Below are positions 7,801 through 16,729 of a stretch of 52,951 nt of DNA, one piece after another. The notes under the pieces are model-generated. The model was not told where the DNA came from, ran no database searches, and saw only the letters and a program-made list of their open reading frames with translations. Both the position numbers and the translations under genes were made by a program. The stretch is from a virus: IMG/VR virus record IMGVR_UViG_3300038660_000404, positions 1-52,951 of that record; one strand, 5' to 3'. The first letter of the stretch is position 1, and the number at the start of each line of letters is the position of its first letter.

Positions 7801-8174
7801 AGTCTTCATTTGCAGGAAATAAGGGTTGCGCCGGAATTTTGTCGTTAGCAATCAGCAGCTTGATCGGCTGCACGCGTGGGCGACCGGTCGAAAAGTGGAT
7901 GCACAAGCGTTTTTCTGAATATCGGGGTATTGGTGAGTGGTTCAGCGTTCATCCTGACATGCTTTCAACCGTTCCGCCTGATGTGGTGCCGCGCGTTGAG
8001 AAGCTGGTGACACGCCGTGACGTCCGCTTGTCGCTCAAAGAGCGATTTCTTGCGGTTGAAATGCAGCGCGAAGGACTGGGGCTTTCGTTAACCGAAGCGC
8101 TCGTGTTGCTGGTAGCGCATATGGCCGATTTGGAAGCGCTGACCGCGTTGGGAATGATCGGCGGTGGGGCATGA
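7797..8174 (+). CDS. GIY-YIG (T5orf172)-like remnant protein
   Basis: A 125-aa protein. Residues about 30-55 (PVEKWMHKRFSEYRGIGEWF) match the C-terminal signature H-x-RF-x(6-9)-GEWF of T5orf172-type GIY-YIG proteins, but the GIY and YIG motifs and the rest of the nuclease N-terminus are absent. The C-terminal 60 residues are a separate helical region. It may be a truncated domain reused as a small early protein. The start at 7797 overlaps the Cro-like stop. Confidence in a real gene is fair, in any activity low. Confidence 0.65.
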   Translation: MKSSFAGNKGCAGILSLAISSLIGCTRGRPVEKWMHKRFSEYRGIGEWFSVHPDMLSTVPPDVVPRVEKLVTRRDVRLSLKERFLAVEMQREGLGLSLTEALVLLVAHMADLEALTALGMIGGGA

Positions 8175-8842
8175 ATACGCACAGCGCAATCCCTGAACGC
8201 CTGCCGGTTTCGACAATCCGCGCCGATGGCGGCACCCAATCCCGCGCGCAACTCTATCGAAGTATCGTTTCTGATTATGCCGGCCTGATCGCAGGCGGTG
8301 CAGTATTCCCCCCGATCATCGGTTTTCACGATGGCTCTGATTATTGGCTGGCAGACGGGTTTCACCGCCACGCCGCGCACATTTCTCTTGGCCTCGCCGA
8401 GATCGATGTTGTTATCCGGCAAGGGGCGCTCCGCGATGCGATCCTCTACAGCGTGGGTGCTAATTCGAGCCACGGTCTGCGCTGCACCAATGAGGACAAG
8501 CGCCGTGCTGTATTGAAATTACTGAACGATCAAGAGTGGGGCCAGTGGCCGGATACGGCTGTTGCCAACCAATGCGGCGTGGGCCGAAATTACGTTCACA
8601 AAATGCGTGGCGAAGTCACTTGTATTCCGAGTGCAAGTGAACCCGCCGAGCCAGTGTACCGGAAATACACTGATCGATACGGCAAGCCAAAGGGCAAGCG
8701 CGGCTACCTCTGGGCGTGCTCAGACCATCGACCTGACGGCGAGAGCCGCCGCGAGGAGCGGGTCGAGGCCTGTTACGGCCACGGCAAACCAAAACCAGAC
8801 ATTACCCCCACCACCGCAGCAGAGAAAGGACCACAGGAATGA
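8171..8842 (+). CDS. ParB-like nuclease-fold protein with HTH
   Basis: A 223-aa protein. Residues about 10-90 form a ParB/Srx-like fold with the key ADGFHRHAA box (D-G-x-H-R) near 76-84. Next comes NSSHGLRCTNEDKRRAVLKLL, then a helix-turn-helix (WPDTAVANQCGVGRNYVHKMR) near 130-150, and a basic C-terminal tail (KPKGKRGYLWACSDHRPDG). Such single-gene ParB-like proteins are known from phages and plasmids, where they bind DNA and may regulate or cut it. It lies in the early operon with ATGA overlaps on both sides. Confidence 0.85.
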   Translation: MNTHSAIPERLPVSTIRADGGTQSRAQLYRSIVSDYAGLIAGGAVFPPIIGFHDGSDYWLADGFHRHAAHISLGLAEIDVVIRQGALRDAILYSVGANSSHGLRCTNEDKRRAVLKLLNDQEWGQWPDTAVANQCGVGRNYVHKMRGEVTCIPSASEPAEPVYRKYTDRYGKPKGKRGYLWACSDHRPDGESRREERVEACYGHGKPKPDITPTTAAEKGPQE

Positions 8843-9180: not shown

Positions 9181-9716
9181 TGATCATTGCGGCGCTGGAT
9201 TTGGCCACAAAGACCGGCGTCGCGGTTGGCCCGCTCGGGGGCCAGCCGGAGCTGTGGACGTTTGATCTCAAGTCAAAGGGCGAGGCCAAGTTCCACGCAA
9301 CCCGCCTGATGCAAATCCAGGGCCTGGCCCACCGGCTGATCGCGGAGCAGGGTGCCCGGTTCATCGCGATCGAGAAGCCCTTCGTGGCCAGCCACAACAA
9401 CTGGGAGGCGACCCTGCTGACGATCGGGCTCACGGCCAACGTGCTCAGCTGGGCCGAGCGTAAGGGCATCCCGGTCGACATCATCCCGGCCCAGACTGTC
9501 GCCAAGCACTTCACCGGCTCCGGCAAGATGAAGCGCGACGAAAAGAAAGCCGCGATCCTTGCCGAGTGCCGCGCGCGCGGCTGGGAGCCCAAAGACGACA
9601 ATCAGGCGGATGCGGCAGCCCTTTGGGACCTCGCCTGCGCGCGGTTGCTGCCAACTCAAGTCGTGAGTTCAGCGTTGGCTTTAAACGATAAAAAAAGGAG
9701 AGGCCGAGGTGCATAG
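9180..9716 (+). CDS. RuvC-like Holliday-junction resolvase
   Basis: A 178-aa RNase H-fold endonuclease of the RuvC type, expected to cut four-way junctions formed during phage replication and recombination. The acidic residues fit the family: Asp7 in AALDLATKTG, Glu65 in FIAIEKPF, and Asp140/Asp144 in KDDNQADAAALWDLA. The start ATG at 9180 shares a base with the upstream stop; the longer frame from 9057 is arginine-rich shadow sequence. It pairs naturally with the recombination and replication genes around it. Confidence 0.88.
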   Translation: MIIAALDLATKTGVAVGPLGGQPELWTFDLKSKGEAKFHATRLMQIQGLAHRLIAEQGARFIAIEKPFVASHNNWEATLLTIGLTANVLSWAERKGIPVDIIPAQTVAKHFTGSGKMKRDEKKAAILAECRARGWEPKDDNQADAAALWDLACARLLPTQVVSSALALNDKKRRGRGA

Positions 9717-10638
9717 CTTTGACCCCAATATAGCGCAACGCGTCGGGATCAGTGCGGCGGTGATTTACCAAAACATCTTTTGGTGGTGCCAGAAAAACGC
9801 CGCGAACGAGCGCAATATCATCGATGGACTGGCGTGGTCGTACAACAGTGTTCGGGCCTTCACGACGCTGTTTCCCTACCTGACCGCAAAGCAGGTTCGC
9901 ACAGCGCTGACGGTGCTGGAAGACGAAGGTCTCATTTTGGTCGCCAACCACAATGTGGATCCGCGCGACCGGACAAAATGGTATGCTATTTGCGTTCAAA
10001 ATGCTGTGCCGGATCCGGCAAATGGCTCTGCCCCACAGGGCAAAGCGGTCTGCCCTCCAGGGCAAAGCACATTTGCCCCACAGGGCAAACCATTACCAGT
10101 TAGTAAACCAGATATAAACACAGATGGTAAACCTTATGATCACCGCGATGCGGCGATCGCATCGACGCCGCAGGAATTTGAACTTGCTCAAGACGAATTG
10201 GTCCCAGTCGATGCCAACCCGCCATCCAGAGCCATAAAGCGATCTGCGCACCCAATCGCTGGCGGATTGCACGAATCCTGCGAAAGCCTGAACGACGAGT
10301 TCGAACGGGTCTGGGCGCATTTCCCGCGGAAGGTTGGCAAGGGTGCAGCACGCGCAGAATGGGTCAAGGCCCGGCGTAAGGCGAGCTATGCGGCGATCAC
10401 TGGCCCTCTTGGTTTTTGGATCAAACTTCAGAGCGGCACACCCACCGACAAAATCCCACATTTCCGGACTTGGCTGCATCAGGAGCGCTGGACGGATGAC
10501 CAGACCCATGCCCGGAACAGGGCTGAGACGACATCCGACCGGCTCGACCGGCTCGGCGAGATTTCCACGGATACCGGGTGCGATCAGATCGCCGGTCCAC
10601 AGCGCAAACTTCCAGAAATTGAGTTGAGGTTCGACTGA
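9709..10638 (+). CDS. Winged-helix phage replication initiator (lambda O-like role)
   Basis: A 309-aa protein starting with GTG at 9709 behind AAGGAG. The N-terminal domain (about 1-100) is a winged helix of the phage replisome organiser type: ISAAVIYQNIFWWCQKN, then YLTAKQVRTALTVLEDEGLI. A linker (about 105-170) encodes the repeats reported separately. The C-terminal part contains FERVWAHFPRKVGKGAARAEW, typical of phage replication proteins. Like lambda O, it probably binds origin iterons inside its own gene and recruits the host helicase via a partner, perhaps the next gene. The replication role is inferred from domain layout. Confidence 0.85.
   Translation: MHSFDPNIAQRVGISAAVIYQNIFWWCQKNAANERNIIDGLAWSYNSVRAFTTLFPYLTAKQVRTALTVLEDEGLILVANHNVDPRDRTKWYAICVQNAVPDPANGSAPQGKAVCPPGQSTFAPQGKPLPVSKPDINTDGKPYDHRDAAIASTPQEFELAQDELVPVDANPPSRAIKRSAHPIAGGLHESCESLNDEFERVWAHFPRKVGKGAARAEWVKARRKASYAAITGPLGFWIKLQSGTPTDKIPHFRTWLHQERWTDDQTHARNRAETTSDRLDRLGEISTDTGCDQIAGPQRKLPEIELRFD
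10027..10090 (+). repeat. Three iteron-like repeats: candidate phage origin
   Basis: Three 19-bp copies at 10027-10045, 10049-10067 and 10072-10090 share TSTGCCC-N4-GGGCAAA (copy 3 begins TTTG). Each is also an inverted repeat of TGCCC/GGGCA. Starts are 22 and 23 bp apart, about two helical turns. Copy 2 is read in a different codon frame from copies 1 and 3, so the repetition is at DNA level, not protein level. A relatively AT-rich stretch (10091-10140) follows. This matches the lambda arrangement of iterons plus unwinding element within gene O. Confidence 0.65.
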
Positions 10639-14015: not shown

Positions 14016-14159
14016 TAAGCGCCCAGAGGCCCACGTCCACAGCGCCACGGAGCGGGCCGTAGAGAGCGGACAGCACGCGCTTTACCAGGACCTTAACGCC
14101 AGGCCAAAGGCGGGCCACAGCAAGCCTCTGCGCACCTCGTAGACCCCACCCCTTGGGTC

Positions 14160-14173
14160 CCCTCCGGAGAGGG
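14160..14173. other. Small hairpin in a gene-free 218-bp gap
   Basis: CCCTC-CGGA-GAGGG forms a 5-bp stem with a 4-nt loop, embedded in a C/G-rich segment (14130-14205) between the Z-like gene and the methyltransferase. No T-run follows, so it is not a standard terminator. The gap 14016-14233 otherwise shows no gene; the frame open through it is an unconvincing extension of the methyltransferase. Confidence 0.3.
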
Positions 14174-14233
14174 CTGACGTGCGGGGCCGCCGCTGCGCGG
14201 TATTTGCGTGTTTTTATTTCTTTCAAATATCCG

Positions 14234-15544
14234 ATGGAGTTTGTTTTGCCCCCAAGTTCAGATGCCCCTTCCGGTCGACTTGATGCTGCCCGCTGGCCTG
14301 CCTCGAAGATTGAGATGTGGCCGGTTGCAGACCTCACGCCCTACGTCAAAAATGCCCGCACGCATCCTCAAGAGCAGGTTGATCAGATCGCGGCGTCGAT
14401 GGAGCGGTTCGGCTTTACGATCCCGATGCTTGTCGCTGAGAACGGCACGATCATCGCTGGCCACGGACGGCTGATGGCTGCGGCGCAGCTTGGCATGGCC
14501 GAGGTCCCGGTGATGGTGGCGCGGGGCTGGTCTGATGAGGACCGGCGGTTTTACACGCTGGCTGACAACCGGCTGGCGGAGACGTCGGAGTGGGACCCGG
14601 AGACGCTGCAGGTTGAGTGGGATGAGTTGAACGCGCTCGGGCTTGGCGATGATCTGTCGATGATCGGGTTCTCCGATGAGGACCTGAAGGACATTCTGCC
14701 TGCCGCGCTGCTTGAGGTGACGGGCGGTCTGACGGACCCGGATGATGTGCCGGAGGTCGACGAGGCCCAGCCGATCAGCCAGCCCGGCGATGTCTGGATC
14801 CTCGGCAAGCACCGGCTGCTCTGCGGCGATAGCACTGTGGCCACCGATGTGGAAAAGGTGCTGGGCGATGTGACGCCGCTGCTGATGTGCACAGATCCAC
14901 CCTACGGAGTTGAGTACGACCCGAGCTGGCGCAACCAGGTGGGGGCGGCCAAGACCAAACGTACCGGCAAGGTGCTGAATGATGATCGGGCCGATTGGCG
15001 CGAAGCCTGGGCGCTGTTTCCGGGTGACGTGGCCTATGTCTGGCATGGCGCGCTGCACGCAGGAGAGGTCGCGGAAAGCCTAGAGGCGGCTGGCTTCACG
15101 ATCCGCTCGCAGATCATCTGGGCCAAGGAGCGGCTGGTGCTCAGCCGGGGCGATTATCACTGGCAACATGAGCCGGCCTGGTACGCTGTCAAAAAGACCG
15201 GCAAGGGTCACTGGGCGGGCGATCGCAAGCAGACGACGCTGTGGCAAATCCCCAGCAAGGATCAGGATGCCAAGACGGTACACGGAACACAAAAGCCGGT
15301 CGAATGCATGCGTCGGCCGATCGAGAACAACTCGAGCCCCGGACAGGCGGTTTATGAGCCCTTCATGGGCTCAGGGACCACGCTGATCGCAGCGGAAATG
15401 TCAGGACGCGTCTGCTTCGGCATCGAGTTGAACCCGGCTTACGTCGATGTGGCGGTGGAGAGGTGGCAGAACTTCACCGGCGAGGACGCCGTTCTGTCCG
15501 GCTCGGACGAGACCTTCAACAAAATTAAGAACAAAGACGATTGA
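14234..15544 (+). CDS. ParB-like domain / N6-adenine DNA methyltransferase fusion
   Basis: A 436-aa protein that should methylate adenine-N6 (or less likely cytosine-N4) in DNA. Residues about 28-120 are a ParB-like domain (VADLTPYVKNARTHP, GTIIAGHGRLMAA). The catalytic domain (about 185-420) has the DPPY motif at 221-224 before the SAM-binding FMGSGTT at 377-383, the beta-class order. FGIELNPAYVDVAVERW closes it. Such fusions are frequent in phages and may modify phage DNA against host restriction. ATG 14234 is chosen although its ribosome binding site is poor; ATG 14315 is an alternative. Confidence 0.92.
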   Translation: MEFVLPPSSDAPSGRLDAARWPASKIEMWPVADLTPYVKNARTHPQEQVDQIAASMERFGFTIPMLVAENGTIIAGHGRLMAAAQLGMAEVPVMVARGWSDEDRRFYTLADNRLAETSEWDPETLQVEWDELNALGLGDDLSMIGFSDEDLKDILPAALLEVTGGLTDPDDVPEVDEAQPISQPGDVWILGKHRLLCGDSTVATDVEKVLGDVTPLLMCTDPPYGVEYDPSWRNQVGAAKTKRTGKVLNDDRADWREAWALFPGDVAYVWHGALHAGEVAESLEAAGFTIRSQIIWAKERLVLSRGDYHWQHEPAWYAVKKTGKGHWAGDRKQTTLWQIPSKDQDAKTVHGTQKPVECMRRPIENNSSPGQAVYEPFMGSGTTLIAAEMSGRVCFGIELNPAYVDVAVERWQNFTGEDAVLSGSDETFNKIKNKDD

Positions 15545-15547
15545 GGC

Positions 15548-16729
15548 ATGAATGACCTGGCTTTACATCCCTCCGGACGCGTTTCCGGATCCCCAGACGC
15601 TTGCCTCTTCGGCCTCTCGCTGTGCTCCGGTGCAGGCGGGCTCGACCTCGGGCTCACCATCGCCATCCCTGGATATCGAACTTTGGGCTATGTCGAACGG
15701 GAGACCTACGCCGCAGCCACTCTCGTGGCGCGGATGGAAGACGCGGCCTTGGATCAAGCGGTTGTCTGGGACGACGTTGGAACCTTCGACGGCCGACCGT
15801 GGCGCGGCGTGGTGGATATCCTCTCGGCCGGGTACCCTTGCCAGCCATTTTCGGTCGCGGGCAAACGGCTCGGCACCGAGGACCCGCGCCACCTCTGGCC
15901 GCATGTCGCGCGCATCATCGGTGAATGCGAGCCGCCCTTCGTGTTCCTCGAGAATGTCGCCCATCATCTCCGCCTCGGCTTCCCCGAAGTCGCCAGCGGA
16001 CTGGTCAGCATGGGCTACAAACTTGCGGCAGGCCTCTTTACGGCGGCGGAAGTCGGTGCGCCGCACAAACGCGAGCGGCTGTTCATCCTTGCCATCCGCG
16101 AGGGGGACGCGCTGGCCGACCCCGCGCGCCTGCTCTGGGACCCGGTCGAGTGGCGGCAACCGGACGGAGATGATGCGGCTCTGGCCGACGCCCCGCGCCA
16201 GCGCCAACGAGAACCGGCAGACGAAACCGACGCCGTCGCAAGAAGCGGGCAAGCATGGGATGAACTTGGCAACGACGGCCGCGATGTGGCCCACGCCGCA
16301 AACCGACAGCTTTCGGAGCCGGGGCGGAGACCGAAAGCACGAGAAGGGTCTGGACAGTATGGCGCGGGATTGGCCGACGCCCATGGCGAACGACGGCAAC
16401 AAGCCGAGCGCGGGCAACCGCAAGACGGCGGATCTGACCCATGCCAGCCGCCTGTGGATGACGCCGACGGCGCGGGATCACAAGGACGGCGCGACGACAT
16501 TGGCGAACACGCCGGTGAACGGCCTGCTTGGCCGCCAAGTCCTGGTGATGAAGGTGGCTGGGAGCGATACCTCCGATGCGCGCCGGACCTTGAACCCAGC
16601 ATTCGTCGAGGCGCTGATGGGCTGGCCCACCGGGTGGACCGGCTTCGCCTCTGTGGCAACGGTGTGGTCCCCTTGGTTGCAGCGCATGCGCTGCGAACTT
16701 TGGCGGCTGAACTGCTGGCCGATAGATGA
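15548..16729 (+). CDS. C5-cytosine DNA methyltransferase (frame 1)
   Basis: A 393-aa enzyme that transfers a methyl group from SAM to C5 of cytosine. Motifs in order: I LCSGAGGLDLGL (25-36); IV AGYPCQPFSVAGK with the catalytic Cys98; VI FVFLENV (Glu135); VIII GAPHKRERLFILA (170-182); X RLRLCGNGVVPL (365-376). The stretch 205-335 is the expected variable target-recognition region, but its third-position G/C bias is weak (hand count 18/30 codons at 16370-16459, against 28/30 in the +1 frame). The GAGG ribosome binding site is only one base from this ATG. The whole gene is overlapped by another open frame. Confidence 0.9.
   Translation: MNDLALHPSGRVSGSPDACLFGLSLCSGAGGLDLGLTIAIPGYRTLGYVERETYAAATLVARMEDAALDQAVVWDDVGTFDGRPWRGVVDILSAGYPCQPFSVAGKRLGTEDPRHLWPHVARIIGECEPPFVFLENVAHHLRLGFPEVASGLVSMGYKLAAGLFTAAEVGAPHKRERLFILAIREGDALADPARLLWDPVEWRQPDGDDAALADAPRQRQREPADETDAVARSGQAWDELGNDGRDVAHAANRQLSEPGRRPKAREGSGQYGAGLADAHGERRQQAERGQPQDGGSDPCQPPVDDADGAGSQGRRDDIGEHAGERPAWPPSPGDEGGWERYLRCAPDLEPSIRRGADGLAHRVDRLRLCGNGVVPLVAAHALRTLAAELLADR

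Follow-up and report, generated by a model that had tools for sequence, protein, structure and literature searches.

Replication origins that lie inside the gene of their own initiator are already known from phage lambda, from oriL of phage SPP1 and from RepA_N plasmids. In lambda, dimers of the O protein are described as binding repeats and opening an adjacent 40-bp A+T-rich region (PMC5043065), and according to the accounts of lambda (PMC5043065, PMC7466680) and of Rep from plasmid pSK41 (PMC5703833) the initiator fills phased sites, the AT-rich block opens and the helicase is loaded. The pSK41 rep gene is described as having four Rep boxes in its central part and as encoding a protein with DnaD-like domains, in which the linker encoded by the ori is dispensable (PMC5703833). 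SPP1 oriL is reported to consist of gp38-binding repeats together with an AT-rich unwinding element, both within gene 38 (PMC6316719). In the Bartonella ROR, palindromes and a GC dip in a gene upstream of a phage helicase were read as a lambda-like in-gene origin (PMC3610622), and in Francisella phage KIRK an origin was proposed from repeats in an AT-rich region inside a replication gene (PMC7924643).

The window, that is the whole stretch of DNA analysed, comprises 52,951 bp (positions 1-52,951 of the IMG/VR virus record IMGVR_UViG_3300038660_000404). Among its products are a serine-recombinase integrase, RecT, ParB-like and RuvC-like proteins, a terminase and a portal, and the source is therefore probably a temperate tailed phage. 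Two adjacent genes, 14153-15544 and 15548-16729, match DNA methyltransferase families and in the former the match is joined to a ParB-like N-terminal part. The gene at 9709-10638 (plus strand, GTG start) had been read as a replication initiator gene, and its product does match PHROG replication-initiation families (11233, 270, 428 and 6493), the best being phrog_11233 at 1.6e-29. No Pfam family was matched at 0.001, and the RepA_N domain (pfam06970 in PMC5703833), sought in the product by sequence at the same threshold, was not found, the resemblance to that group being one of fold only.

Three palindromic sites of 18 bp with the consensus TYTGCCC-N4-GGGCAAA are located on the plus strand of this gene, at 10027-10044 (TCTGCCCCACAGGGCAAA), 10049-10066 (TCTGCCCTCCAGGGCAAA) and 10072-10089 (TTTGCCCCACAGGGCAAA, with arms that form a perfect palindrome), the second base being C, C and T in copies 1-3. 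The original prediction was of three 19-bp copies of TSTGCCC-N4-GGGCAAA, each an inverted repeat; the number of copies and their palindromic nature stand, whereas the length and the S (here Y) had to be corrected. The start positions bear out the predicted spacing of 22 and 23 bp, and the offsets from the GTG at 9709 (318, 340 and 363) place copies 1 and 3 in the same reading frame and copy 2 in another, as had been claimed. A candidate degenerate fourth iteron (TGTGCCggatCCGGCAAA, 10005-10022, plus strand) with three mismatches to TTTGCCCN4GGGCAAA is found 22 bp before copy 1 and keeps the phase of the array. When searching the 52,951 bp for exact TGCCCN4GGGCA only three sites appeared, all of them the iterons. 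The locally AT-rich stretch that was expected after the copies is visible as a fall to 37% GC at 10080-10139 (60-nt windows), and contains three tandem AT-rich 12-mers on the plus strand (10095-10130; individually 10095-10106, 10107-10118 and 10119-10130) that resemble ACCAGATAnTAA and form a candidate unwinding element. The AT content at third codon positions is 0.94 in this block and 0.35 elsewhere in the gene.

Chance expectation was addressed with a de novo detector of phased palindromes, which is given no motif and looks for three copies with arms of 6 nt, a spacer of 3-7 and a spacing of 20-25 (maximum score 36). The initiator gene scored 34, the highest value in the whole window, while dinucleotide shuffles of the gene (n=40) scored 29 or less. 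Random synonymous recodings of the gene contained three perfect sites in 4 cases out of 20,000, and when 400 synonymous recodings were scored by the detector the best reached 33 and none 34. The same detector recovered the annotated iterons of lambda de novo, with a score of 33.

An AlphaFold2 model of the product (ma02015ac6b62) proposes a confident winged helix at residues 1-95, a low-confidence linker at about 98-180 and a helical C-terminal part at 194-285, and it is this linker, predicted to be disordered, that is encoded by the array and the AT-rich block. The model thus agrees with the lambda-like placement suggested earlier, between a DNA-binding and a C-terminal domain. A fold look-up among solved structures gave initiator N-domain entries as its top four (4pql, 4pt7, 5kbj and 4pta; Z 9.2-10.4, next entry 8.7), with weak Foldseek E-values (best 0.034). 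We take these four entries to be RepA_N plasmid initiators, which would fit PMC5703833. A lambda O structure was absent among the fold entries listed, which excludes nothing, and the winged-helix profile run against the sequences of solved structures gave a chance match only, none credible. The predicted recognition helix, according to the alignment and the structure model, comprises residues 60-72 (9886-9924, plus strand), and its K61 and R64 are invariant in 23 aligned relatives, which were picked by their DNA sites.

A search of IMG/VR with DNA only, for two adjacent sites, revealed 53 loci. Including the window, 54 ORFs cover the DNA-found sites and match phrog_428 in 46 cases, phrog_11233 in 45 and phrog_678 ('O-like') in 34, the last being a family to which the window product has no match at 0.001; a few of the script-picked ORFs are non-initiators or cut (e.g. 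L020, L023 and L037). The spacings in these loci, which are not independent, were 21 (5), 22 (38), 23 (16), 24 (3) and 25 bp (2), 56 of the 64 not being multiples of 3. DNA-only matches, to the array or to the 12-mers treated below, fall mostly in phage initiator genes.

Relatives were also collected by protein only, with a winged-helix search, giving 125 loci (80 of 141 viral relatives and 45 genome loci) in 40 clusters at 90% winged-helix identity; this set is biased towards the recognition helix, since the peptide patterns cover a portion of it and the query alignment was built from loci picked by their DNA. A near-perfect site (at least 9 of 10 core bases) is present in the gene in 34 of the 40 clusters (111 of 125 loci), two or more are present in 21, all of which span at least two reading frames, and the density is 69 sites in 29,391 bp of genes vs 9 in 161,201 bp of flanks. 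The detector score is at least 29 in 35 clusters, with the array 266-327 nt from the start of the match. Homologues that keep the linker and lose the DNA repeats, the case named beforehand as speaking against the prediction, are thus not the rule. Scores were below 29 in five clusters (L086, L115, L153, L196 and L205), among them L115 with a score of 28 and a still recognisable TTGCCC array, and L196 and L205 with short open frames. In the nearest independent relative, L131/L034, 36 of 86 linker residues are identical to those of the window, and the same kind of sites is found, partly in other frames.

Two further observations were made among these relatives. L131/L034 and the window share 80–90% identity in the neighbouring proteins, but their initiator winged helices agree in just 59 of 95 residues, a pattern that would fit an exchange of initiator and origin or their fast evolution as a unit. 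An initiator of close similarity that carries the same array is found on genome contigs of many Rhodobacteraceae species (among them L162-L193, the L162 cluster having 36 members), which suggests a widespread prophage or a conserved element.

In all 35 clusters scoring at least 29 the sequence is AT-rich right after the array, the excess lying in the first 45 bp past it (means of 0.695 and 0.709 in 30-nt windows starting 0 and 15 nt past the array, gene 0.508), and the AT-rich block of lambda is found at the same offset. The block consists mostly of tandem 12-mers close to ACCAGATAnTAA; at a lag of 12 the identity reaches 0.537 within the block, compared with 0.279 in the rest of the gene and 0.444 in the block after synonymous recoding, 12 is the best lag in 29 of the 35 clusters, and third-codon-position AT is 0.904 vs 0.463. 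As the 12-mers are all read in the same frame, the pattern could partly reflect the peptide. In the 12-mer analyses the array end of L162, L188 and L206 was shifted 21 nt by hand, and L291, L296 and L318 were left out of the set with other half-sites.

DNA-only searching with a tandem of ACCAGWTNNTAA gave 77 loci, 69 of them in an ORF with the winged helix of this initiator family, although some ORFs look unrelated (e.g. L352, L357, L362, L370 and L406). The 170 nt upstream scored at least 29 in 46 of 76 cases vs 1 of 203 control windows, and TTGCCC was among the many half-sites there (24 of those scoring at least 27). With a tandem of ACAGAGAYTACN at least 120 loci were found; 19 of 80 listed ORFs have the winged helix of this family, the others being by eye mostly other phage replication proteins, among the matches listed, and the upstream score was at least 29 in 57 of 75 cases vs 1 of 221 controls, again among the matches listed, where the ACAGAGA scan covered 80 loci. 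Other phages, too, have 12-mers resembling those at 10095-10130 after arrays whose half-sites are unrelated. The 12-mer could not be extended to lambda, as a model trained on the TTTGCCC clusters ranks the lambda block at 0.45 of its windows. Of 32 genes that have other half-sites (lambda among them), the same model ranked the block in the top 5% in 13, mostly kin of the same winged-helix family.

Synonymous change was analysed in relatives, the window's own close relatives being too few for a test on the window alone. In seven partly overlapping sets (34, 10, 6, 5, 16, 15 and 7 unique sequences) it amounts to 0.038-0.127 in the array, 0.029-0.088 in the next 15 codons and 0.221-0.368 in the rest, a drop of about 2.4- to 6-fold and 4- to 8.6-fold, respectively. 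No window elsewhere falls below the array in three of the sets; in the other four, such windows occur in 9/218, 11/204, 4/172 and 5/168 cases. In the L162 set (34 unique prophage genes) each comparable codon pair carries on average 0.045 synonymous differences within the array and 0.00 within the codons at 390-419, vs 0.208 and 0.242 on the two sides. There is therefore DNA-level constraint on the array and the following codons in these relatives.

The half-sites vary among relatives while their place after the winged helix is kept. A genome set was collected by match to PHROG families or to the winged-helix profile, from genomes of two phyla (those of Clostridium L200 and Chromobacterium L202) and from five genomes in which earlier loci lie. 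Of its 119 loci (L207-L325), 18 were dropped because the genes overlapped or were duplicates; the 101 that remain include many short or unrelated HTH proteins. Scores of at least 30 that also exceed the locus' own 20 shuffles were found in 31 loci, scores of at least 31 in 24, with 21 different consensus half-sites, and in the flanks a score of at least 30 was reached in 4 of 196. Among named phage homologues found by protein only (21 of 124 matching records), 14 of the 21 score at least 29; their arrays lie 286-377 nt into the gene, and TTTGTC, TCGCCG, TGTGCA, TTCACA and TGGTCA are examples of their half-sites; for one of the 14, from Bacteroides BF698P1, the score was reached by 1 of 30 shuffles and by 0 of 30 in a second run. 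A recognition-helix code, striking by eye, was rejected: the Mantel correlation between half-site and recognition helix (r 0.18, p 0.02) leaves no signal past winged-helix relatedness (partial Mantel p 0.21; n 25, protein-selected, with L236 left out as a near-copy of L235). Pairs of TCCGCN4GCGGA (19 loci), intended as a control pattern, were likewise discarded as a poor null, about eight of the ORFs (L062, L068, L071, L073, L074, L075, L078 and L080) being by eye winged-helix replication proteins with arrays. TCCGC-type arrays in initiators such as L062, L071, L073 and L080 were thus met by way of this control.

The segment is best read, with a probability of roughly 0.88, as a lambda-type replication origin within the initiator gene of a temperate phage, bound by the product of that gene. 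Repeated palindromes in the gene, an adjoining AT-rich element, an interdomain placement in the model and selection on the DNA, seen in relatives and by recoding of the window gene, were all found, and relatives keep the sites despite a changed linker, so the earlier lambda-like reading holds at the level of sequence. The anatomy was computed on the window and the constraint on relatives, while the link between such sites and initiator genes was computed across phages. GC skew, suggested as a check, gave no usable origin signal and no switch at 10 kb, gene direction being a confounder. We infer that the N-terminal winged helix binds, probably as dimers, the three or four 18-bp iterons in its own gene, and that these, about two helical turns apart, let the initiator assemble along the array. 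Such an assembly would strain and open the adjacent block of tandem 12-mers, where the C-terminal part may recruit the replicative helicase and replication would start.

Palindromic phased sites can serve as operators, and as these sites lie within a gene that needs transcription the array might instead be autoregulatory, with the initiator or a repressor controlling transcription through the gene only and the origin located elsewhere. This is improbable, as the sites lie more than 300 bp inside the coding region, right before an AT-rich block that is constrained in relatives, and no further exact site occurs in the window. Even less probable is binding by another phage protein, such as the product of 8171-8842, which matches phrog_1033 (ParB-like) and is encoded upstream in the same gene run, the array then being a parS-like cluster. 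parS sites are palindromes, but a relative of the ParB-like protein was found in only 4 of 178 loci (flanks being short), each of them closely related to the window, whereas the array is frequent among the remaining loci, and arrays with several different half-sites reside in initiator genes. That the APQGK/CPPGQ motifs were selected as peptide, with the DNA similarity a by-product, is the least probable of all. Similarity among the three peptides speaks for it, as do the repeats that relatives encode in one frame of their AT block and the part of the 12-nt period that survives recoding of the block (0.444 vs 0.537). Against it, the copies occupy different frames, both in the window and in every one of the 21 clusters with two or more near-perfect sites, recoding hardly ever keeps the three sites, synonymous change is suppressed and the linker is predicted to be disordered, in line with the earlier claim that the repetition does not stem from protein repeats.

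Going beyond the origin reading of this locus, a tentative proposal, which we consider possible but somewhat doubtful, is that in-gene origins of phages are two-part and modular. A variable palindromic array would be read by the initiator's own winged helix and followed by a more widely shared tandem 12-mer unwinding element, CAGA[TG]AnTA[AC]n[AC]; because the 12-mer follows half-sites that are unrelated and occurs in initiators whose DNA-binding domains differ, it would probably be read single-stranded by a partner common to them, be it the C-terminal domain, a helicase loader or a host factor. The linker peptides LPxRA, CPxGQ, APxGK, NKPD and TEIT would then be by-products of origin DNA, so that recurrent linker peptides are explained as DNA signals, and many phage and prophage origins could be called from sequence. 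For this uncultured phage a likely replication origin is placed to about 130 bp, and a cheap rule suggests itself, namely to inspect the linker of winged-helix phage initiator genes for an origin. Studies of DNA recognition and origin melting would also have dozens of natural pairs of origin and initiator at hand, whose half-sites differ. Phage replication modules have reportedly been reviewed by Weigel and Seitz; the open-access literature searched yielded no overview of either these arrays or the 12-mer, which is weak evidence of absence.

Compared with the described systems, the locus comes close to lambda O/ori-lambda, where four palindromic 18-bp iterons, with spacings of 20, 24 and 23 bp and distributed over three reading frames, are likewise located in the initiator gene and followed by an AT-rich block. 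Lambda differs in having a half-site of TCCCT where the window has TTTGCCC and an AT block in which no 12-mer of the window type stands out; the window product has matches to several PHROG initiator families but to no Pfam model. The likeness to RepA_N plasmid initiators such as pSK41 Rep lies in the winged-helix N domain, which ranks first in the fold look-up, but these belong to plasmids and not phages and the identity in the aligned domain is about 8–11%. SPP1, with direct repeats and a second origin, oriR, can be likened to the window by its description (PMC6316719), as can the Bartonella ROR, a domesticated remnant with an inferred origin (PMC3610622), and Francisella KIRK, where the origin is a proposal (PMC7924643). 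The window would thus be an added member of the known in-gene kind with a half-site of its own; less expected is the apparent breadth of the layout, seen in many phages of distant kinship, with many half-sites and a shared 12-mer block, and least expected of all would be the 12-mer as an unwinding repeat.
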